Source of the DNA: a virus
Virus record (IMG/VR): IMGVR_UViG_3300037840_000269
Span: 1 to 40,514 of that record
Length of the DNA: 40,514 bases
Strand: one strand, 5' to 3'
Positions 12,326 through 38,483 of the stretch are shown here, piece after piece. The notes beneath the pieces are model-generated. The model did not search any database and was not told the DNA's origin. It saw nothing but the letters and a program-made list of their open reading frames with translations. Within the stretch, counting starts at the first letter, position 1. Each line of letters begins with the position of its first letter. A program made the position numbers and the translations under genes.

Positions 12326-13859
12326 CAACGCGGGCCTCGTTATTAGAGACTAAATCGGTATAGCTATTGTTGCGCGCGTCAAGCTTGCGCTGCGCTTCGT
12401 CTACGATACCACTAGAGCGCTTATCACCTTTTGGCCTGGTCGAGCAAAGATACTGCATCGCGTTCATTAAGTGGTCGTGCGCCTTGCGCGGCTTGTCCTT
12501 AGACAAGCCCTTTTGTTCTCCTGCTTGAAAGAAGTCCCAGGTATAGTGCTCGATCTCGTTTTCGAAAGCGCGCAATCCATCAAAAATATAAAGAGCAGGA
12601 TGACGACTATTAAGTTGAGTGGTTGCGTTTAGATACTCCCGGCTGACATTAAGGCCATAATCATCTCCAACCTCTGGCTGTCGGACAGGTAGTCCAGCTT
12701 CGCGGTATAATTGGGTGTTGGTCTTGTGCGTCTCGGCGTTCTTTTGCCGACCAAAGAACGGATCAATGAGCCAAATGTCCACCGGGTCACCGGCGGTTCT
12801 GATCTTAATGTTCTTGGCATGATCCGAGATAATCAGGTCCTTTTCGTAGTACTCTTTATAGAGATAGATATTATCGTGTGGATCGATCGCGGCCCACAGC
12901 ACAGCTGTCACGCCGCTCGCCGCCGGGTCTATCGAGACGTACCGGGGCCATTCACGCGGTATACCGAAGGGTCGTACCACATGTTGTGTACGATTCCACA
13001 TTGGGTACACCAGGCCAGATTTTCGTATGAACTCCCCGTAGAGTCTAGCACGTTCCTCGTAATGGCCCGCCCAGAATTCAATTGCTTTGTCTTTCTCAGC
13101 CTGTGGGACATATGGGTTATCCAGCAAACTAAGCTGTACGAACTTTACGTCTTTGGCCCCGCGCCGGTACTCTTCGTAAAGATCGAAGACCCATGGCGTC
13201 CGAACGCCTGAGTTAATATCTGTAAGAGGAGTGAGAGTAATACAGATGCGGCCAGCACAATCAATAGTACGCTGATAGCACTCGTTATATACGCTCTCCT
13301 CAGGCTCTTCGTCAATCCAGACCAAGTCAACTGAGGCACCTTGAAACTTCTCGGGTCCCGAGTCAGCCGATTTACAGGTTATTTGGCTGCCGTTGCCAAA
13401 CTTCGCGAGGAAGTCGCCATCTTTAGGGTCACATACCACAGGGTCCCTAGGCAGCATCCCAGGGTGATTACGTCCTGACCGTAGCTTTTGCCCCCAAATA
13501 ACGTCGCGAAGAGTAGGAAAATCCAACCCAACGACCCAAATGTTGTTAGGAGGCTCAGGTATAGGAAGGTCTTTGACGTATTCCCACGCTGGTTCCCCTT
13601 TAAAGAAGTCCTTTCCAAGCGCCCACGCAACTGCGATAAAGGCTCCCTCTTCAGTTTTTCCACTTCGGTTCCCTCCCAGGACTCCGAATATCTTGATTTC
13701 GCTTGTGAACTGTGCAAGTCCTTCACCCTGTTTGGGATAAGGGACCCAATATTTACAGAAAGTATCCTCTTTTCGCTTCTTCTCGAAGGCCTCGATTACC
13801 GCCAAACCATCAATTTGGTTGTAATGGCTGAGTGCTGTCTCCAGCTGTTCTCGACTCAA
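12315..13859 (-). CDS. terL: Terminase large subunit
   Basis: This is the ATP-driven DNA packaging motor and headful or end-cutting nuclease. The Walker A motif GGNRSGKT is at residues 62-69, and Walker B VDLVWIDEE at 177-185 is followed by the coupling region (ICITLTPLTD). The RNase-H-like nuclease begins at YVSIDPAASG with Asp 311, continues with WLIDPFFG, and ends with KAHDHLMNAMQYL. The 514 aa is a normal length. It starts at TTG (13859) behind GAGGGACC and overlaps the small subunit by 50 bases. Confidence 0.95.
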   Translation of the reverse strand: MSREQLETALSHYNQIDGLAVIEAFEKKRKEDTFCKYWVPYPKQGEGLAQFTSEIKIFGVLGGNRSGKTEEGAFIAVAWALGKDFFKGEPAWEYVKDLPIPEPPNNIWVVGLDFPTLRDVIWGQKLRSGRNHPGMLPRDPVVCDPKDGDFLAKFGNGSQITCKSADSGPEKFQGASVDLVWIDEEPEESVYNECYQRTIDCAGRICITLTPLTDINSGVRTPWVFDLYEEYRRGAKDVKFVQLSLLDNPYVPQAEKDKAIEFWAGHYEERARLYGEFIRKSGLVYPMWNRTQHVVRPFGIPREWPRYVSIDPAASGVTAVLWAAIDPHDNIYLYKEYYEKDLIISDHAKNIKIRTAGDPVDIWLIDPFFGRQKNAETHKTNTQLYREAGLPVRQPEVGDDYGLNVSREYLNATTQLNSRHPALYIFDGLRAFENEIEHYTWDFFQAGEQKGLSKDKPRKAHDHLMNAMQYLCSTRPKGDKRSSGIVDEAQRKLDARNNSYTDLVSNNEARVGEW

Positions 13860-14274
13860 GGTCCCTCGCGATCTTCGCTTTCATCTCATCGATGTCTTTT
13901 TGGGTCACGCCTTGAAAGACATTGACCTGGCCACCCTCGCCAACCCAGTTTTCGAGCTTGGCAATGACCAAAAGCACCGCTGCCGCCTTGTCAGATGAGC
14001 CTTCGGCTTCAAGCTTGTCTGCTAAAATCTGAAGTTGGCCTATTGTGGATTGCTTACTACGACCGGGGTCCCCAGCTACTTCGGCTCGAAACCTGATCTT
14101 TGCTTGGCGCAGGAGCGCCTGGAAGGATTTGCGACGCATGATGGTCGCACATTCGTTGGTTGTGAGCGGGATACTGAGGTCGGTTATTGCTTCTTTGAGC
14201 CCCTTGCCCTCGCGCGCCATGATATCGCACGCGTCTGGCATCCAGGCCTCATCGATTTTCGGAGGACGAGCGAT
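13810..14274 (-). CDS. terS: Terminase small subunit, probable ATC start
   Basis: The small subunit recognises phage DNA for packaging. From ATC at 14274 the product reads (M)ARPPKIDEAWMPDACDIMAR, which has the [AG]RPPK-type opening typical of small terminases, followed by helix-turn-helix-like helices and a C-terminal coiled coil. TAGGAGA lies eight bases upstream of the ATC. The first conventional ATG (14241), with GAGG five bases upstream, would cut off that conserved opening. The gene is first in the leftward operon and 29 bases past the putative ECF promoter -10. The call as TerS rests on position and size. Confidence 0.8.
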   Translation of the reverse strand: MARPPKIDEAWMPDACDIMAREGKGLKEAITDLSIPLTTNECATIMRRKSFQALLRQAKIRFRAEVAGDPGRSKQSTIGQLQILADKLEAEGSSDKAAAVLLVIAKLENWVGEGGQVNVFQGVTQKDIDEMKAKIARDLESRTAGDSTQPLQPN

Positions 14275-18730: not shown

Positions 18731-18742
18731 CTAGGAGGTCCT

Positions 18743-19132
18743 ATCAAAACCAAAATACTCGGCCTGCTTTCAGCAGGGGTGCTGTTTGCGCTCTGCTTTG
18801 GGCTATGGCCGCCACCACAGGTGCTTTATGCACAAACGACAACCCACAGTGTCACGCTGACGGTTACAGCGCCAAGTTCAGGTGACACACCCGCGACTTA
18901 TAACATTTTGCGCAGTCTAACCAGCGGAACCGAGACGCAGTATGCGTCGATTCCGTTCAACGGAACAACGACAACCTATGTTGATACGGCTGTGACTGGC
19001 GGTACGACATACTTTTATACGGCGAAGGCGGTTAACTCGGCTGGTACGAGCGCCGCAAGCAACGAGGTGAGCGCGGCCGTCCCTTTGGCAGTACCGGGGG
19101 CACCGGGCTTAGCGGTTGCCAGTAAGCAGTAG
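18743..19132 (+). CDS. Secreted fibronectin type III-like protein, probable ATC start
   Basis: ATC at 18743 lies four bases after a perfect AGGAGG, and reading from it supplies a basic n-region (KTK) to the hydrophobic core GLLSAGVLFALCFGLW, with cleavage likely after LYA. The first standard start (GTG at 18779) would lie inside the hydrophobic core and leave no charged n-region. The mature part (residues about 33-115) has the FN3 strand pattern (PATYNILRSL, TTTYVDTAVTGGTTYFYTAK and VNSAGTSAASNEV). Probably a surface or periplasmic binding protein; the partner is unknown. Confidence 0.7.
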   Translation: MKTKILGLLSAGVLFALCFGLWPPPQVLYAQTTTHSVTLTVTAPSSGDTPATYNILRSLTSGTETQYASIPFNGTTTTYVDTAVTGGTTYFYTAKAVNSAGTSAASNEVSAAVPLAVPGAPGLAVASKQ

Positions 19133-23230: not shown

Positions 23231-24463
23231 GTGGAACGGAAAGTCTTCAAGCTTGGGCCGAAGCAGTTTGGGTTTTCGTGTGATAACTATAAGTGCGTTG
23301 ATCCCGCCGCGAAGGCTAGAATGCTAAGTGGCGCTGCGGTCACAAACAAATTCGGTCTCGCGCGGGCCAAGGCGAGTTTGCTTAATAATCGAAGACAGTT
23401 GACGAACTTGATTGGCCTGGTTGGAAGCGCTGGCGAGAACAAACTGAACCCCGATCCAAGAATGGGCTGTGACCCGGAGTTGTTTTTGAGCGACGCTGAC
23501 GGGAAGTTGATCCCGGCGTTCGACGTGCTGCCGAGTAAAAAGGATAATTCGGTGTTTTGGGACGGTTTCCAGGCCGAGTTTACGGTGTTTGCGGATTCGT
23601 GCTTGATTAACTTGGCCACGAGAATCCAGAACCAGATGCATCTATTGAAGAGAACTTGCCTTAAGCCAGTGAACCTGATGGCCGGGGACGTAGTTGAGGT
23701 TGATAAAGCGCTCTTGAAAAAGTTACCTGATGAGCGAGTTGCGCTCGGCTGTGATCCGAGTATTAATTTGTATGGTTCGCAGGGGCAAATCCCGGTTGAT
23801 CCCAGAGCGCTCGCGCTACGCTTCGCGGGAGGGCATATCCATTTCGGAGACGACAGCCTTGCAAGGGACCAGGTTTACGCGAGTCAGGTTGTATACAACT
23901 TGGACCGTATACTTGGTATTTGGGCCGTGGGCGCTGCCGCGAACTACGACAAAACGAAGTCGCGCCGAAAACACTATGGGCTGGCCGGAGAGTTTAGGCT
24001 GCCCTCGCACGGCCTTGAATACAGGACACTTAGCAACTTTTGGCTCGCGGGACCGCAGATTTACTACCCGACCTTTGAGCTTGCTCGCGTGATTATGCGC
24101 GCAACGAGTTATGGGATACTGGATTTTTGGGTCGCGGACACGCGGGTGGTTGTTGATACGATAAATAACTATGACGTTGAAATGGCACGGCGCATTTTGC
24201 GCTATAATGAGAAATTGTTTATCAAGCTGTTCGCGGCGAGTAACCTTATGTATGCGCAGAAGACGAAAAACGTCCCTGGTAATCCAGTACCGGTTTTCAT
24301 TGAACCTGAGTTCTTTGCGAAGCGCGCGCTTCAGGTTGGCTTAGAGGGCATGGAGTGCGTGGTGCCGAAGGCTTCGATGGAAACAAATTGGCGTTTGGAT
24401 ACGGTTACTTCGCTAGTACGCACTTACCCCGACTGCTGGTCCACGACATGTCTAAAAGCGTAA
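23231..24463 (+). CDS. COOH-NH2 ligase type 2 (phiEco32-like amidoligase), copy 1 (410 aa)
   Basis: The glutamine-synthetase-fold signature is clear: GCDPELFL (residues 79-86), GFQAEFT (112-118), GGHIHFG (200-206) and GEFRLPSHGLEYRTLSNFWL (253-272). These provide the metal- and ATP-binding acid, His and Arg residues. Members ligate a carboxylate to an amine using ATP. About 75 N-terminal residues with unusual composition precede the core. GTG at 23231 follows AGGAGGTATT. The substrate is unknown; partners are the amidotransferase, ATP-grasp and GGCT proteins here. Confidence 0.85.
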   Translation: MERKVFKLGPKQFGFSCDNYKCVDPAAKARMLSGAAVTNKFGLARAKASLLNNRRQLTNLIGLVGSAGENKLNPDPRMGCDPELFLSDADGKLIPAFDVLPSKKDNSVFWDGFQAEFTVFADSCLINLATRIQNQMHLLKRTCLKPVNLMAGDVVEVDKALLKKLPDERVALGCDPSINLYGSQGQIPVDPRALALRFAGGHIHFGDDSLARDQVYASQVVYNLDRILGIWAVGAAANYDKTKSRRKHYGLAGEFRLPSHGLEYRTLSNFWLAGPQIYYPTFELARVIMRATSYGILDFWVADTRVVVDTINNYDVEMARRILRYNEKLFIKLFAASNLMYAQKTKNVPGNPVPVFIEPEFFAKRALQVGLEGMECVVPKASMETNWRLDTVTSLVRTYPDCWSTTCLKA

Positions 24464-28358: not shown

Positions 28359-28857
28359 TAAACTGCCGTTGGCGAGTAGCTCCAGCGGGATCGCGCCGTT
28401 TCCGGGGCGCTGGCCCACGCGCGTAGCTATTGAGTTCGTGGATGGGCGGGTTTATATCGGGAAGCCCTTTAGAAACCTACAGCGCTTGGTCGCGGAGAAG
28501 CGCCGAATGATAACGCGATTGATTGAGTTCGACAAGAAACATCGGATCATGCTTTATATAGCCGGGTCCAAGAAGTTTGCGTGGTTCAGCAACCGACCTT
28601 TTTATTGTTATCATCCGTCGCTGCTTGGGTATACTGGGGACCCGTTTCTCCCCGAGTTACCTTGGTTCGCTTGGAATATGGAGCCGCTCCGCATAAAGGA
28701 AATCCCCTGTTACATACCGGGGCCGCTTAATGAGGGCGCGAAGTTATTTTATGAGAATGCGTTAAGCACTTACCTTAAGTCAAAGGCCGAGAAAGCAGCG
28801 CCGAAGCCGTTAAAGATCGGTACGCCGTTCTCGGGTTACCAGGCCTTTTATCGATGA
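28330..28857 (+). CDS. Hypothetical protein in amidoligase cluster (175 aa)
   Basis: ATG at 28330 follows GAGAGGCCC. The sequence alternates strand and loop segments (VAIEFVDGRVYIGKPFRNLQ, AGSKKFAWFSNRPFYCYH) and ends with a basic tail. I do not recognise a domain. Tight coupling to the following amidoligase (ATGA overlap) suggests a shared role, possibly substrate binding. Confidence 0.6.
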   Translation: MKRYSALTIDKLPLASSSSGIAPFPGRWPTRVAIEFVDGRVYIGKPFRNLQRLVAEKRRMITRLIEFDKKHRIMLYIAGSKKFAWFSNRPFYCYHPSLLGYTGDPFLPELPWFAWNMEPLRIKEIPCYIPGPLNEGAKLFYENALSTYLKSKAEKAAPKPLKIGTPFSGYQAFYR

Positions 28858-30386
28858 GATACGTCGATCTAAAACGAAACTTCATCCGGGAGCTAATCCT
28901 GCGCGGGGAAAGCTCTCCTGCGGCTGCTCCTGAGGAGATCAGGGCGCGGGTGCCCGAAGCCATTTTAAAACGTTGGACAGATCGTTTCTACACGATCACG
29001 CGCATTAACGAAGTGCCAATGTGTCCGAGGTTGGTTAATCACTTTCAGATCGGCGCGGACCCGGAGTTTGTCTTTAAGAACGGCGCTGAGGTCTACGATG
29101 CGAATGCCTTTCAGATGAAAGCGGGGCTCTGTATCGGCGCCGATAACAACGGGCGTTTAGTTGAGTTGCGGCCAGCGCCGAGTCGGTTTGCGCTTAAGGT
29201 TGTCGCGAGCATGCTTAGCGAGCTTAGGTGGCTTAGTATACTATATCCCAAGACAACTGAGCTTGCTTGGAAAGCGGGCGCGTGGAGCGGCGCAGAAGGC
29301 CTAGGGGGTCATATTCACTTTGGCCGTAAAGTACTTAAACAAAAGCCCTTTGAGGTCAAGGCACTGGATAACCTAACCGCGTTGTTGTTTATATCGGGCG
29401 TTTATCCGGTGGACGAACAAAAGAGTCGCCAAGCGGGGCAAGGTGGCTATGGGCAATTTGGTGCTACGCGCGTCCAAGCGCACGGCTATGAGTACCGAAC
29501 GCCGCCGAGTTGGCTATTTAGCCCGTGGCATGCGTTTTTGGCGCTTACGCTAGCTAAGCTGGTTGTGGCCTCGCCGGAGTTGGCGATTAGCTTGAGCGCG
29601 AAGGCAACTTCGCCAAGCGAAGCCCGCAGGCGCATCAGGAACATCCTGGTTCAATTCAAAGGCCGCGATGACGATGCGCTTATCGCGTGTATGGGGTTTA
29701 ATGTTTGGGGGTTACCTAATACAGTTGAAAAGGACTTTAAGGTAGCTTGGGGTATTAGTGCGCGCTCCGCAGAAAGTTGGAAAACACTGGGGTTTCCTCT
29801 GCCGCAGATATTGCCTCCACACATTGAGCCCTCCGTGCAAGAGACTAATGAGGTCTTTGAGTACATTTGTAGAGGCCGCGCGCTAGCAGGGATGCTTCCA
29901 AGCGCGCCTAATTGGGAGTTCCAGGCTGCGCCGAGAGGGTATGTTGCGCTGATCCAGCATGTAAATACAGTGCGTTGTCCGGGGCTCGGCGAGCTAACGC
30001 GGGATTTGCTTAGTCCGGCTTCGCTGACAATAACCTATATCGGGGGTGAGAGCGCATGTTTTTATATACCACCTATTTGGTATCAATTGCTCGGCGGGGA
30101 AGCCGGTTTGCGCAAGGTGAACCAAAAGTACCCAGGGCTAAAGGTCAAGTTTGATCCTGCGCATGGTAGCGTACAGCTAAACAAAGGCGCCCTTACGCCG
30201 GATATGCTCGCGACTACGCGCGCCGTGCTAACGGAGTTCTTTCCGCTAGTACGGTATCGGGACTATAAGAGCTTCCCGCGCGAGCAGTGGATGATGCGGC
30301 TTAAAGATGCAGAACTGGCGCTGAACGCGAAGTCTAAGTCCGTGGCGCCACCAAAAAGTGTTTGTTTGTTCGATGCTAAAATCTAG
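28854..30386 (+). CDS. COOH-NH2 ligase type 2, copy 2 (510 aa)
   Basis: The core matches copy 1: GADPEFVF (residues 67-74), GADNNGRLVELRP (95-107), GGHIHFG (151-157) and YEYRTPPSWLFSPW near 213-226. The extra C-terminal half (after about residue 330) is unlike copy 1 and includes a Cys-Pro-Gly motif and YIGGESACFYIPP, so it may add substrate specificity. ATG at 28854 overlaps the previous stop. Expected activity: ATP-dependent amide bond formation. Confidence 0.85.
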   Translation: MRYVDLKRNFIRELILRGESSPAAAPEEIRARVPEAILKRWTDRFYTITRINEVPMCPRLVNHFQIGADPEFVFKNGAEVYDANAFQMKAGLCIGADNNGRLVELRPAPSRFALKVVASMLSELRWLSILYPKTTELAWKAGAWSGAEGLGGHIHFGRKVLKQKPFEVKALDNLTALLFISGVYPVDEQKSRQAGQGGYGQFGATRVQAHGYEYRTPPSWLFSPWHAFLALTLAKLVVASPELAISLSAKATSPSEARRRIRNILVQFKGRDDDALIACMGFNVWGLPNTVEKDFKVAWGISARSAESWKTLGFPLPQILPPHIEPSVQETNEVFEYICRGRALAGMLPSAPNWEFQAAPRGYVALIQHVNTVRCPGLGELTRDLLSPASLTITYIGGESACFYIPPIWYQLLGGEAGLRKVNQKYPGLKVKFDPAHGSVQLNKGALTPDMLATTRAVLTEFFPLVRYRDYKSFPREQWMMRLKDAELALNAKSKSVAPPKSVCLFDAKI

Positions 30387-30424
30387 TCGGCCAAGCTACT
30401 TCAGCTTGGGAGGAGGGTAGTTAT

Positions 30425-31441
30425 ATCTGTGGCATAGGGGGCTTTAAAAGATATGGTCAAGAGCCCATTGACCCGGAGAAGATCGAGGTAATGCTCTGCG
30501 CGCTTCAGACCCGAGGCATCGACGCAACGGGGATTGCGTTGATGAACCCGGATAGGCATCTTTATACGATGAAGGACGACGTGCCTGCGGTGCGGTTTGT
30601 GAGCAGCCCACGGTATAAGGACTTTATCAAAGAGCACTTACACCCGGACACGCTGAGCGTGATCGTGCATACGCGCGCGGCAACCGACTCTGGTTATGGC
30701 GTCAGCAAGGGTAACCCGAGAAACCTAGAAAACAACCACCCTTTGTTTAAAGGGCAAGCCGCGATTGTGCACAATGGGATTATCTCGAATCATCAGTCGT
30801 TGTTCGAGGAACTCAAGCTTGAGCGGGGTGCGGATACGGATTCGGATATTATCCGCGCGATCGTGGACTCGGAGGGCCTGACGAACAAGGCGACTATTCG
30901 GCGGCTGGCGCGCTGTTGGGGAAGCATGGCAGTGCTTGCGCTAGACCCCAGGCAACCGGAGCACTTGCTTATGGTGCGAAGCGGGAGTCCGCTTGTGCTA
31001 TATGCGTGCAAAGAGCCGATAGATCAACTGGTCTTTGCCAGTACGAAGGAGGTTCTCAGCAAGACCATGCGACCTTGGTTCGAGAAGTGGGGCGTATGGT
31101 TCCAAGCGCCGCGCACAGATGGTGGTTATCTGACGATGCGCGACAACACCGCGTGGCTTTGGGGACCGAGGGGCCTCGAATGGCATGATGAGTGTCGTAC
31201 GAGTAACGGGTATACAGAGCCTAATCGCCGCGTGCACGAGGACTATGCGGCTCGACAGAAGCGCTGGGATGAGGCTGTGCGCCCAAAAGACAACGCCACC
31301 ATCCTAAAGGGCGCTAAGATCATCCGGGTCCAGTGCGAGGATGGCCACTGGAATAGGTTTGATAACGGCGTTATGCAGATTGAACTTGTGAGGTTCCGCT
31401 GTGGGGCTAAGGGGTGCAAAAAGCAACTGAAGGGGGTTTAG
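30425..31441 (+). CDS. Class II glutamine amidotransferase, ATC start
   Basis: Read from ATC at 30425, the protein begins (M)CGIGGFKRYGQEP, which gives the Ntn-hydrolase N-terminal nucleophile Cys2. Further class II motifs: LQTRGIDATGIAL, HTRAATDSG, NNHPLFKG, VHNGIISNHQSLFEELK, TDSDIIRA. It hydrolyses glutamine and supplies ammonia. AGGAGGG lies seven bases upstream of ATC. The next ATG (30491) would remove 22 residues, including the nucleophile. Downstream are the ATP-grasp and amidoligase genes, likely acceptors for the ammonia or the amide product. Confidence 0.9.
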   Translation: MCGIGGFKRYGQEPIDPEKIEVMLCALQTRGIDATGIALMNPDRHLYTMKDDVPAVRFVSSPRYKDFIKEHLHPDTLSVIVHTRAATDSGYGVSKGNPRNLENNHPLFKGQAAIVHNGIISNHQSLFEELKLERGADTDSDIIRAIVDSEGLTNKATIRRLARCWGSMAVLALDPRQPEHLLMVRSGSPLVLYACKEPIDQLVFASTKEVLSKTMRPWFEKWGVWFQAPRTDGGYLTMRDNTAWLWGPRGLEWHDECRTSNGYTEPNRRVHEDYAARQKRWDEAVRPKDNATILKGAKIIRVQCEDGHWNRFDNGVMQIELVRFRCGAKGCKKQLKGV

Positions 31442-31442
31442 G

Positions 31443-32183
31443 GTGATTACGCTACACGTCGCTAACGGCTGTGGCCCAACGGGCCGGGTATTAGAGAAAT
31501 TGCTAACTGACCAAGGCGTCAAGCTAGGCCCAAATGGTGATGGCCATGTGTGTTGGGGCGTCGGTGTGGACGCCGGGAAGCCCACGCTAAACGGCAGACT
31601 CGCCCGTACCAAGCTCGGCGAGTTACAGACGCTTAGCAAAGCCGGGGTACAAACCGTAGCCTTCTGCACGGGGCTGCCACCGAATTACCCTGCGCTAGCG
31701 CGCATGAACCAACACCACGGAGGCCGTGATATTCGAGTGTGCTTGAACCGCGCGGATGCGGAGCGTGCGCTGCGCGATGGCTTTGGGTTCTTTACGATTT
31801 ATGTGCTTAAACAAACCGAGTACCGCGTGTGGATTTACAGACGCCGACATCTCGGCACATATGAGAAGCGGCTTGAATACCGAGAAAAGTTCAAGCGCAT
31901 CGGAGGAAATTATGCGAACGGTTACGCGTTTCACCTTGTCTCATCAGACCAAGTCCCAAGAGCGGCAGTTGAACTTAGCACGCGCGCAATTACGGCATTA
32001 TCGCTTGACTTTGGAGCGGTTGATGTACTCAATGACAAATCCGGAGCGAGCTTTGTACTCGAAGTCAACACCGCCCCCGGTGTCGAAGGTGACGGTCGCA
32101 CCGTCATCCAAGCGCTCGCGGTAAAGATCGCTAATTGGGAGAAGCGCGGGTATCCTAGACGAAACGGAGACAAAGATGACTAG
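31443..32183 (+). CDS. ATP-grasp ligase, RimK-like (246 aa)
   Basis: GTG at 31443 begins just after the amidotransferase stop. The C-terminal half shows ATP-grasp metal-binding residues: FGAVDVLND (Asp 194 region) and FVLEVNTAPGVEG (Glu 207 and Asn 209), with the mid-region RVWIYRRRHLGTYEKR as the ATP-lid strand. These enzymes form carboxylate-amine bonds. The protein is short and lacks a long N-terminal domain. It is predicted to act with the adjacent amidotransferase and ligases. Confidence 0.8.
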   Translation: MITLHVANGCGPTGRVLEKLLTDQGVKLGPNGDGHVCWGVGVDAGKPTLNGRLARTKLGELQTLSKAGVQTVAFCTGLPPNYPALARMNQHHGGRDIRVCLNRADAERALRDGFGFFTIYVLKQTEYRVWIYRRRHLGTYEKRLEYREKFKRIGGNYANGYAFHLVSSDQVPRAAVELSTRAITALSLDFGAVDVLNDKSGASFVLEVNTAPGVEGDGRTVIQALAVKIANWEKRGYPRRNGDKDD

Positions 32184-32754: not shown

Positions 32755-33229
32755 GACGCTGCTGGCGTTGCAGAAAGTGTTGCGCTGGCATGTGCGGGTC
32801 ATCCTGTGGAGGCTCTTGAACAAAACGCGCCACAACATCGACGAGCTGGTCGAGGATACCGTGACGCACATTTTGGCGAACTTGGAAGCCTTTAAAGGCG
32901 AAAGCAACTTCTCAACCTGGGCCTTTCGAATCGCGCATAATCAGGGCGTTTCATATCTGCGCAAAGCGCACGCTACGTGCAGCATAGATGACTTGGAACT
33001 TGCGTTCCCTGATACAGAGCAAGCGCTGAACGCCCAAATCACCTGTGACCAAATCGAAGCGCTCTTGACGGAGCGCGAAGCTAAGTTATTTCATTGGTTG
33101 CGCGAAGGACTTTCGGCCAAAGACATGGGAGACCAGCTAGGCGTGGGGCGCAAGCATATTGAGCGCTCTTTAGTCAAGCTGAAGGCCAAAATAAGGAGGC
33201 TTTGTGGTGAGGTTAGTGAACAAGTTTGA
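32696..33229 (+). CDS. ECF-type RNA polymerase sigma factor (177 aa)
   Basis: Region 2 (about residues 40-95) includes DELVEDTVTHILANLEAFKG and ESNFSTWAFRIAHNQGVSYL, the ECF core-binding and -10 recognition helices. Region 4 (about 120-170) includes LTEREAKLFHWLREGLSAKD and the HTH DQLGVGRKHIERSLVKLKAK. Regions 1 and 3 are absent, as in ECF factors. The four GGTACC-N15-GCGTCTAAT sites in the window are the likely targets. phiEco32 is known to encode an ECF-type sigma (gp36). ATG at 32696 follows GAGGGTGTAAACC. Confidence 0.85.
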   Translation: MSLMGTTAKYLAYSQAPSDKTLLALQKVLRWHVRVILWRLLNKTRHNIDELVEDTVTHILANLEAFKGESNFSTWAFRIAHNQGVSYLRKAHATCSIDDLELAFPDTEQALNAQITCDQIEALLTEREAKLFHWLREGLSAKDMGDQLGVGRKHIERSLVKLKAKIRRLCGEVSEQV

Positions 33230-33956
33230 AGTCGGCTGTGACCCGGAGTTTGCGGTCTTGGATAAAACGGGCAACTTGGTCGATGTCCAGAACCTAGGTC
33301 ACGAAGGCGTCGTCGGTTACGACCATGGCGGGGACTGCGCGGAGCTACGGCCCGCGCAAGCTCGGGGCTTGTGGACTTTAATAAAGCGTCTTCAAGTGCT
33401 TATTGCGCCGCCTTATCCAAGCTTGAAACCCTTTTACCAGCAGCGCTGGCGCGCAGGCGCTTATTATCGTAGCACGGACGGCGAAACCGTAGCGCTAGGC
33501 GGGCATGTACACTTTAACATCCACCGTAGCCTATTTCCGCCCCTGGCGCTTAGCGCACTGGACCGCGTCACGAATGTCCTTGAGCGCTGCGATATTCTGC
33601 CGCGCGGCGAGTGCGTAGTGCGCCGGACGCAAACCCTATACGGCAAATGGGCACAGATTCGCCATGACACGCCCGATCAGCACGTTGAGTATCGGACTAT
33701 GGCTAGTTGGTTGTTTAGCCCTTGGATCAGCTTTCTGTGCTTGACGCTGGCGAAACTCGCTGTGGTCGATCCGCCGGGTGTGACCTTTAATAATGATTCG
33801 GGTCCGCGCGAGATCATCGAGTTCCTGGAGCGGTTTCGTGGCAAGGACCAAAACGTCGATCGACTGCTCGCGAAGCTTGAGCGTGATAGGACCTGGCTGG
33901 TTGTGAAACCAGACGATGATATAAAGGAGGCATGGGCTAAGCCCTTGGGACGATAG
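33204..33956 (+). CDS. COOH-NH2 ligase type 2, copy 3 (250 aa)
   Basis: A compact version: GCDPEF (residues 11-16), GGDCAELRP (42-50), LGGHVHFN (98-105) and HVEYRTMASWLFSPW near 160. It lacks the long N-terminus of copy 1 and the C-terminal extension of copy 2. GTG at 33204 follows GGAGGCTTT and overlaps the sigma gene by 26 bases. All catalytic-type motifs are intact, so this is not a remnant. Confidence 0.85.
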   Translation: MVRLVNKFEVGCDPEFAVLDKTGNLVDVQNLGHEGVVGYDHGGDCAELRPAQARGLWTLIKRLQVLIAPPYPSLKPFYQQRWRAGAYYRSTDGETVALGGHVHFNIHRSLFPPLALSALDRVTNVLERCDILPRGECVVRRTQTLYGKWAQIRHDTPDQHVEYRTMASWLFSPWISFLCLTLAKLAVVDPPGVTFNNDSGPREIIEFLERFRGKDQNVDRLLAKLERDRTWLVVKPDDDIKEAWAKPLGR

Positions 33957-35012: not shown

Positions 35013-35093
35013 GGGGCCTTATAGCTCAACGGTAGAGCGCCACAGGGTTAATGTGGAGGTAAACGGTAGGTTCGACTCCTCACCAAGGCCCCG
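35013..35093 (+). tRNA. Aberrant tRNA-Asn-like gene (anticodon GTT)
   Basis: The acceptor stem GGGGCCT/AGGCCCC is perfect over seven pairs. The D stem is GCTC/GAGC (35024-35038), and the anticodon stem CCACA/TGTGG (35040-35056) encloses loop GGGTTAA with anticodon GTT. A TTCGACT T-loop sits at 35071-35077. Oddities: position 33 is G not T, the T stem is bulged (GGTAGG versus CCTCACC), and the linker before the D stem and the variable region are both longer than usual. No CCA is encoded. It ends two bases before an ECF-type promoter. Confidence 0.6.
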
Positions 35094-35402: not shown

Positions 35403-36201
35403 CTCGCGCGCAAATGCCTTCCGTAAGTGCCCTGATTTCTATAAAGAGCGCTACGTCAACAAGCTAGAACGTAATTGGGGTAACTCCGCAAACTCGCCAT
35501 TCGGCTTCGGCAAGCGCATCCACGAACTACTCGAAGAGCACTTTAAGGCCCTAGGAGGCCTGGCCTACGAACCATATCCCCCCGCAGAGGAACCAACGGA
35601 GTCTGAATGTCAGGCGATGTTTGCCGCTTATTGTGCTCATTATCCCGTGGAGCCTTTTGTTCCTGTGGCTGTGGAGCAAGTATTTCAGGTAGCGATTCCG
35701 GGAACCGCGCACATCTACACCGGCAAATTCGATGCAATCGTGAGGTACCTTGAAGCGCCATATACTAACCAACTCGCTATCCTTGAGCACAAGTCAGAGA
35801 AGCGAAGCGGGGTTAGCAATTTGCCTGAGGCGTGGGCGGCTCGAAGTCAAGTGTCCTTGTATATGTGGGCAGCCGAGCAGCTATACAACGAAAGACCTGC
35901 ACATATCGTGCTCGACGTGCTTCGAAGACAAAGTGAGAAAGGACAAGAACCTTGTTCTTTCTACCGCGATACGCTTGAGCGCACAGCGCAACAATCGGAA
36001 ACGGCCATCGCGGATTTGGTTTATGTTGCTGACCAGATTTCTGAACTTACTGACACAGGCGGTCACTGGCCCCAGAACACCGATCAGTGCATGGTCGGAC
36101 GATGGGCCTGTGACTACTACTCAAAACACATAATCGGTGACACGCCCGAGATGGTCCAGATTTCTTATCGCCCCGCCGAGGAGTACTTAAGTACACTATG
36201 A
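35389..36201 (+). CDS. PD-(D/E)XK nuclease, RecB/Cas4-like (270 aa)
   Basis: The core motifs are FRKCPDFYKERYV (residues 11-23), FDAIVRYL (Asp 115), AILEHKSEK (the ExK at Glu 133 and Lys 135) and QVSLYMWAAEQLY (154-166). Cys 14 and the CMVGRWACDY pair near the C-terminus could ligate an iron-sulphur cluster, as in AddB/Cas4. It likely resects DNA ends for recombination together with the next ATPase. TTG at 35389 is the probable start; an ATC two codons later is another possibility. Confidence 0.8.
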   Translation: MLIDNSRANAFRKCPDFYKERYVNKLERNWGNSANSPFGFGKRIHELLEEHFKALGGLAYEPYPPAEEPTESECQAMFAAYCAHYPVEPFVPVAVEQVFQVAIPGTAHIYTGKFDAIVRYLEAPYTNQLAILEHKSEKRSGVSNLPEAWAARSQVSLYMWAAEQLYNERPAHIVLDVLRRQSEKGQEPCSFYRDTLERTAQQSETAIADLVYVADQISELTDTGGHWPQNTDQCMVGRWACDYYSKHIIGDTPEMVQISYRPAEEYLSTL

Positions 36202-36377
36202 CCCAATTCAAGGTTCAGCTCGAAGTAACTGAAACCCGCAGCCTCATCGTAGACGCCGAGGACAGCGACCAAGCCGAAGACATTGCCGTTCAGATCGTCG
36301 AAAACGACCCGGTCGAAGGCGAGCGCGAAGACCTGGATATACACTATGTCGTTGCGACGCCGGACGATGTCGAGTAA
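36198..36377 (+). CDS. DpnD/PcfM-like small protein (59 aa)
   Basis: ATG at 36198 overlaps the nuclease stop in ATGA. The product (MTQFKVQLEVTETRSLIVDA, then EDSDQAEDIAVQIVE) has the beta-strand plus helix pattern of DpnD/PcfM-type small domains and is very acidic at the end. Its role with the nuclease is unknown. Confidence 0.55.
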   Translation: MTQFKVQLEVTETRSLIVDAEDSDQAEDIAVQIVENDPVEGEREDLDIHYVVATPDDVE

Positions 36378-37840: not shown

Positions 37841-38152
37841 TTGGCAAAAGCAAAATCGAAAGCGCTGACTGAGGGCGATGTGGTCGCGCTTATATTGTTT
37901 GTGTTGTTAGTCATTGCTGGAATAGGCTGCCTTGGCTACGTGGTCTACAGCGCGATTTACGACGCAGGTGTCGAATCCGGGTCAACCAAGACCTCCAAGG
38001 AAGACCTCGCACACTATACCAAGATGCTTAACGACAAAGACGACTATTGGCGCGATGCTTACAACAAACTCGCCGCGCAAAAAGGCGTGACACCTTACAC
38101 CAGAGGTTGGGCTTATACAACAAACTGTTTTACTACAGGAGGAACCAATTAA
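37841..38152 (+). CDS. Membrane-anchored protein (103 aa)
   Basis: TTG at 37841 follows AGGAGGGTTGT. A basic start and a membrane helix (DVVALILFVLLVIAGIGCLG, about residues 13-35) precede a soluble helix (EDLAHYTKMLNDKDDYWRDA). This inner-membrane anchor plus helix resembles an i-spanin in plan, but the protein is outside the lysis region. Its stop overlaps the ATT start of the next gene. Confidence 0.6.
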   Translation: MAKAKSKALTEGDVVALILFVLLVIAGIGCLGYVVYSAIYDAGVESGSTKTSKEDLAHYTKMLNDKDDYWRDAYNKLAAQKGVTPYTRGWAYTTNCFTTGGTN

Positions 38153-38483
38153 CCTAAGAAAAATCACCCCGTTGTTCATTTTGCTCTTCGCGCCGATGGT
38201 CTACGCGCAAGAGCTAAAGCCTGAAGTAGCGCTCAAGATCACCCAAACGAAGTTGCAAATCGCACAACTCCAAAAAGCCGAAGCGCAGCTAATCAACCAA
38301 TACAGCGCTTATCAAGCGCAAGAGACACAGCTTAACTCAACACTGTTGACCGAGACGCAGAGCGCTCTAAAGGATAGCGACCTGGACCCGACTAAGTTCA
38401 CGTTGAACCCAGATACGCTAGCGGTAATCAAAAACCCCGAACCTGCCAAGCCCGCAGCTGACGCGACGACCCCCACGAAGTAA
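38148..38483 (+). CDS. Secreted coiled-coil protein, probable ATT start (111 aa)
   Basis: ATT at 38148 lies five bases after a perfect AGGAGG and overlaps the upstream TAA. From there the product reads (M)NLRKITPLFILLFAPMVYAQ, a complete signal peptide with a basic n-region and cleavage after VYA. The next possible start, TTG at 38172, would delete the basic n-region. The mature part is a long coiled coil (TQTKLQIAQLQKAEAQLINQ) followed by a short Pro/Ala tail. Membrane- or envelope-associated function is likely. Confidence 0.65.
   Translation: MNLRKITPLFILLFAPMVYAQELKPEVALKITQTKLQIAQLQKAEAQLINQYSAYQAQETQLNSTLLTETQSALKDSDLDPTKFTLNPDTLAVIKNPEPAKPAADATTPTK

Follow-up and report, generated by a model that had tools for sequence, protein, structure and literature searches.

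The sequence analysed here (the window) is the 40,514-base record of an uncultivated virus. Genes for the major head protein, the portal and the large terminase lie on its minus strand, identifying a tailed phage, and profile searches of the plus-strand half found COOH-NH2 ligases, a RimK-like ATP-grasp protein, a sigma factor and an exonuclease. Among these genes is one for a predicted class II (Ntn) glutamine amidotransferase (GAT), which is laid out with its neighbours as follows.

28854..30386, plus strand: COOH-NH2 ligase (PF14395, by Pfam), adjoining GAT on the upstream side
30377..30379, plus strand: in-frame TAA closing the GAT frame upstream, by frame reading
30411..30417, plus strand: Shine-Dalgarno (SD) sequence AGGAGGG of GAT, 7 nt 5´ of the ATC
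30418..30424, plus strand: spacer TAGTTAT of GAT, kept as TAGYTAT in related ATC/ATT GAT genes
30425..30427, plus strand: ATC, very probable start codon of GAT, from alignment, SD and leader conservation
30425..31441, plus strand: class II (Ntn) GAT, 338 aa, predicted from profiles, fold and sequence homology
30428..30430, plus strand: TGT, predicted catalytic Cys codon of GAT (N-terminal nucleophile after Met removal), from Cys invariance and GlmS/PurF homology
30491..30493, plus strand: ATG at residue 23, first canonical start, which would cost the protein Cys2 and its first strand; not accepted as main start
31443..32183, plus strand: ATP-grasp/RimK-like ligase, by profile match, adjoining GAT on the downstream side
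33204..33956, plus strand: second COOH-NH2 ligase of the cluster, by Pfam

With PF14395 genes on both sides of GAT and a RimK-like ATP-grasp gene directly downstream, the locus has the make-up of a phage amidoligase cluster (phiEco32-type COOH-NH2 ligase), and the trio of GAT, COOH-NH2 ligase and ATP-grasp genes is also present in Alcaligenes phage vB_Af_QDWS535. The window carries three COOH-NH2 ligase-type genes in all (23231-24463, 28854-30386 and 33204-33956), two of which flank GAT and the ATP-grasp gene; for one phage this is an unusually rich set of amidoligase genes. No close strain of the phage was found in IMG/VR or among GenBank phages, and a host search of 84,980 genomes returned no terminase or GAT relative.

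A sequence-only reading of this DNA had proposed that GAT initiates at ATC, and on re-reading, the coordinates, spacing and frame that it gave for the ATC, the TGT and the AGGAGGG were exact. The ATC lies 7 nt after AGGAGGG, or 8 nt after AGGAGG, a strong SD at normal spacing. From the ATC the frame is open to the stop at 31441 (338 codons), with GGC ATA GGG GGC following the TGT, and reads I-CGIGGFKRYG.... The 15 in-frame codons between the upstream TAA and the ATC (AAT CTA GTC GGC CAA GCT ACT TCA GCT TGG GAG GAG GGT AGT TAT) hold no ATG, GTG, TTG or other near-cognate start, and the first canonical start downstream is the ATG at 30491. No canonical in-frame start yields the conserved GAT N-terminus, as expected from the earlier claim that all standard starts would delete the Cys. 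Local RNA structure at the start has no unusual stability (z -0.29), and window positions 28-40.5 kb gave no Rfam matches. Directly 5´ of the SD is a perfect 7-bp hairpin (CCAAGCT-acttc-AGCTTGG, 30391-30409) that is absent from the relative L109.

The assignment to class II amidotransferases was upheld by several lines of evidence. The protein scores above the cut-offs of the Pfam families GATase_6 and GATase_7, and PHROG and NCBIfam profiles, including those for GlmS and PurF, align to it from Cys2. Given the ATC start, Cys2 is invariant in alignments of 5, 3 and 19 sequences. R84, H116-N117-G118 and D139 are invariant too, in the 19-sequence alignment; in the alignment to GlmS, R84, N117, G118 and D139 are the equivalents of R73, N98, G99 and D123. 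An AlphaFold2 model built on 19 phage sequences, with a mean pLDDT of 87 and ~95 at the N-terminus, matched the GlmS glutaminase domain 1xff in Foldseek (E 3.4e-15, target TM 0.75), with PurF also matched. GlmS and PurF are the nearest solved structures by both sequence and fold, the E. coli GlmS glutaminase being nearest by sequence. Judged from these profiles and the model, the gene encodes an intact, predicted class II GAT. With GlmS/PurF-type enzymes it shares the N-terminal Cys nucleophile, the HTR, HNG and D motifs and the predicted Ntn fold, but it stands alone, with no synthase domain, in a COOH-NH2 ligase/ATP-grasp cluster and behind an ATC.

In a broad sample of 80 phage loci collected through GAT homology, an ATG immediately precedes the Cys codon in nearly every case (the exceptions are Cellulophaga phage phi14:2, with AGT and an N-terminal extension, and one chimeric locus), and the codon before the Cys can therefore be taken as the start position in the family. 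The nearest terminase relatives that carry GAT, G002 (46% identity) and G004 (49%), have ATG and an SD at the aligned codon; in the closest GAT orthologues, L093/L110 (46%) and L094 (49%), an ATG with an SD stands at exactly the codon that is ATC in the window. Because the orthologues in G002, G004, G010, G011 and L233 use ATG, ATC is not required for GAT. In the crAss-like phi14:2 (L005 2001, L084 3001) the Cys follows AGT, which is no start codon, and the annotated gene begins 31 codons further upstream and encodes a hydrophobic N-terminal segment; the GAT of this phage may be membrane-anchored or need propeptide cleavage.

The ATC is also conserved. A profile search found two relatives, L109 (44%) and L111 (43%), in which ATC again precedes the Cys and the SD is followed by the same leader, GGGTAGCTAT-ATC-TGY. 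Two more ATC cases, L202 and L203, came from a scan of IMG/VR for the leader, and a second scan, for an SD, ATH and CGI[AG]G, added L170/L181, in which the same leader is followed by ATT. Besides the window, five diverged lineages, all sampled in other metagenomes, thus have the leader GGGTAGYTAT-ATY-TGY. Three unrelated GAT groups also have ATT or ATC before the Cys: L171/L179/L183 (ATT), L180 (ATT) with L187 (ATC), and L191 (ATC). All ten members of the ATC/ATT set that were checked matched GATase_6, three of them below the gathering cut-off.

We considered whether GAT could be made as an upstream-initiated precursor with a propeptide cut before the Cys, or by frameshifting from the upstream ligase gene. 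Propeptides are known among class II GATs, for example in B. subtilis PurF, and the conserved leader varies mostly at what would be synonymous positions (AGY, ATY). However, every ATC/ATT case has an in-frame stop 4-23 codons upstream, with an NTG between that stop and the ATC/ATT only in L170/L181 and L205, and in the orthologues with ATG this very codon is the start. The upstream genes do not keep one frame relative to GAT but occur in all three, so that no frameshift is conserved. Neither a precursor nor a frameshift product is at all likely on this evidence.

The recurrence of ATC and ATT was also apparent when the ATH scan of IMG/VR was matched by a scan for ATG, GTG and TTG and only real GATs were kept. 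Strong-SD GATs comprised 38 with ATG, 6 with ATT, 2 with ATC, 1 with GTG and 1 with TTG, such that ATT/ATC (8/48) exceeded GTG and TTG combined (2), though L170 and L181 look like one phage and seven independent ATT/ATC cases is the safer count. A scan allowing any codon before the Cys gave, among the matches listed, nine real GATs (eight ATG and one TTG) and no other sense codon. A tree of 34 sequences required six changes between NTG and ATT/ATC, at least three of them forced by well-supported branches, so that switches between ATG and ATY, whichever way they went, have happened repeatedly in phage GATs. U at position -1, considered as an extended-anticodon aid, was not enriched, being found at 13/17 ATC/ATT sites and at 57/79 ordinary ATG GATs.

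When gene starts in the window were scanned for SDs, three more genes were found in which the SD points to an ATC or ATT.

13810..14274, minus strand: terminase small subunit gene terS, probable ATC start at 14274-14272, AGGAG at 14287-14283, 8 nt before
18733..18739, plus strand: SD AGGAGGT of gene 18743, from the SD scan
18743..19132, plus strand: Ig-like secreted protein, probable ATC start at 18743-18745, predicted signal peptide MKTKILGLLSAGVLFALCFGLW
38137..38142, plus strand: SD AGGAGG of gene 38148, from the SD scan
38148..38483, plus strand: secreted protein, probable ATT start at 38148-38150, predicted signal peptide MNLRKITPLFILLFAPMVYAQ

For terS, the leader AGGAG-AAGCTACT-ATC would give a product beginning (M)ARPPKIDEAW..., and the window ATC aligns to the ATG of orthologues with the N-termini MGRPERLEDW (G008), MSKPFQLSNW (G009) and MGRPDKLLDKHY (G003); the first ATG in the window gene (14241) comes directly after the conserved Trp. 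Gene 18743 (AGGAGGT-CCT-ATC) would encode (M)KTKILGLLSAGVLFALCFGLW..., a signal peptide followed by an Ig-like domain, and its next start, a GTG at 18779, is without an SD and would drop the charged n-region. In gene 38148 (AGGAGG-AACCA-ATT, giving (M)NLRKITPLFILLFAPMVYAQ) the ATT overlaps the preceding TAA stop by one base, and the next starts are TTG codons without an SD. These alignments and leaders suggest that all three genes probably also start at ATC or ATT. SD-preceded ATC/ATT codons before the first NTG numbered 3 in the window, GAT among them, against 0.40 expected (p=0.006), and none were found in G002 or G010; in 80 other phage loci, ATH at an SD was at chance level (6/110 sites without an NTG). 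Non-ATG starts made up 17/32 SD-supported genes in the window versus 44/182 in relatives (p=0.002), as counted in five related phages with a simple gene caller, doubtful ATH calls having been removed by hand. The window genes that start with TTG, GTG, ATC or ATT tend to have the strongest SDs, and many ATG genes have a weak SD or none.

A further AUC gene is likely in the relative G009, whose GAT is also of the ATC type and where at 47590 (~9590 in L151) AAAGGAGG-CTAT-ATC precedes a 111-codon frame without a supported canonical start. Two other candidates were dropped: the ATT at 60294 of G008 terL, which has an in-frame GTG after the upstream stop, and 17582 in G002, which is inside a gene in another frame.

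The sequence-only reading had left room for a sequencing error hiding an ATG. The window is a single metagenomic contig, its nearest orthologues have ATG and one base would be enough to restore it. Against this, ATC or ATT is found after the same leader in independent contigs of five other diverged lineages, all from other metagenomes, and recurs in three further GAT groups and at three other genes of the window. Errors could not plausibly have struck each of these sites, so we rejected this explanation, and a sequencing or assembly error at the GAT codon appears very improbable.

A similarly slim chance is that translation begins at the ATG at 30491, giving an inactive or differently acting protein, with the ATC representing a start-loss mutation. 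That ATG is the first canonical start and has GGAG 12 nt upstream. A protein beginning there would, however, lack Cys2, the strand at residues 3-9 and part of the helix at 17-27 of the predicted Ntn fold, a region modelled with a pLDDT near 95. The Cys, R84, N117, G118 and D139 are all conserved, codons 2-22 have stayed GAT-like, even though this reading leaves them untranslated, and the position of the downstream NTG varies among the ATC/ATT relatives.

The absence of any other usable in-frame start, the strong SD, the alignment with ATG orthologues and the conservation of ATC/ATT all identify AUC as the GAT start, and the earlier proposal of AUC initiation is supported by the same leader carrying ATC or ATT in diverged phages while ATG orthologues start at the same residue. 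We consider it very probable that GAT starts at AUC, most likely through the usual initiation with fMet-tRNA, the strong SD making up for a codon that is only near-cognate. In such a scheme, the host initiator fMet-tRNA would decode AUC with a third-position mismatch, and an AGGAGG-anti-SD duplex, assuming the anti-SD in the host, would hold the 30S subunit on the codon. Methionine aminopeptidase would then remove the Met and expose the Cys as nucleophile. Licensing of AUC/AUU by a phage factor or special initiator tRNA might be suspected from the several ATC/ATT starts in one genome, but is hardly plausible given that the sole tRNA gene of the window is tRNA-Asn(GTT) (35015-35092) with no phage initiator tRNA found, that no initiation-factor homologue was seen among the window genes scanned, and that strong SDs suffice by precedent (PMC13009471). 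In the relatives G002 (L098) and G005 (L103), too, tRNA-Asn(GTT) was the single tRNA found.

Ordinary initiation at AUC in GAT has several counterparts. infC starts with ATT in E. coli, with ATC in Streptomyces (both under IF3 control; PMC5472188) and with AUA in S. aureus (PMC13009471). As proposed for GAT, infC has an AT-H start rescued by an SD, and IF3 discriminates against that start (PMC5472188), but infC serves host housekeeping autoregulation, whereas GAT is a phage enzyme with no autoregulatory loop in evidence. Streptomyces sigR likewise has a non-canonical, IF3-controlled start (PMC5472188), although the codon is GTC and the product a bacterial sigma factor. In S. aureus, AUU and AUA starts with extended SDs give ~10% of AUG expression, and ccpN (AUA) and cvfC1 (AUU) resemble GAT in combining a conserved non-canonical start with a strong SD (PMC13009471); these are bacterial regulators mapped by ribosome profiling, while GAT is known from sequence, its start being fixed independently by the catalytic Cys. 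The closest phage parallel is terS of S. thermophilus phage TP-J34, the same type of gene as terS in the window, with a strong SD and an AT-Y start (AUU, AAGGAGGTggatgtATT) confirmed by resequencing (PMC3952083); it is one gene in one phage, with a start under no catalytic constraint.

By analogy, the AUC start probably keeps GAT expression low, and the weak codon might thereby keep the glutaminase less abundant than its ligase partners. It might also make GAT sensitive to IF3, as are infC and S. aureus ccpN and cvfC1, if host IF3 is assumed. A more elaborate idea, which we regard as speculative and rather unlikely, is that AUC/AUU starts with strong SDs coordinately control the glutaminase, terS and secreted-protein genes, are discriminated against by IF3, are switched on when IF3 or start fidelity shifts during infection, and have been regained repeatedly as the glutaminase must stay scarce.

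Comparison across phages indicates that AUC/AUU starts are a real, recurrent signal in related and unrelated phages, and the AUC GAT adds to an already known class of non-canonical starts a new example that recurs and is unusually well anchored; a limited literature search turned up no publication describing phage GATs that start at AUC. In class II GATs the position of the catalytic Cys shows where the true start lies, making the family a natural reporter for non-canonical initiation. Gene finders restricted to ATG, GTG and TTG miss AUC/AUU starts, with the result that a catalytic residue would be deleted or signal peptides missed. The ATC/ATT sites also provide a directly testable set for strong-SD rescue of near-cognate starts and for phage use of IF3 discrimination. 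Elsewhere in the window (36179-36200), an AGGAG lies 14 nt 5´ of the ATG of ORF 36141-36377, and the near-palindrome AGTACTTAAGTAC between the two could, by folding, reduce the spacing.
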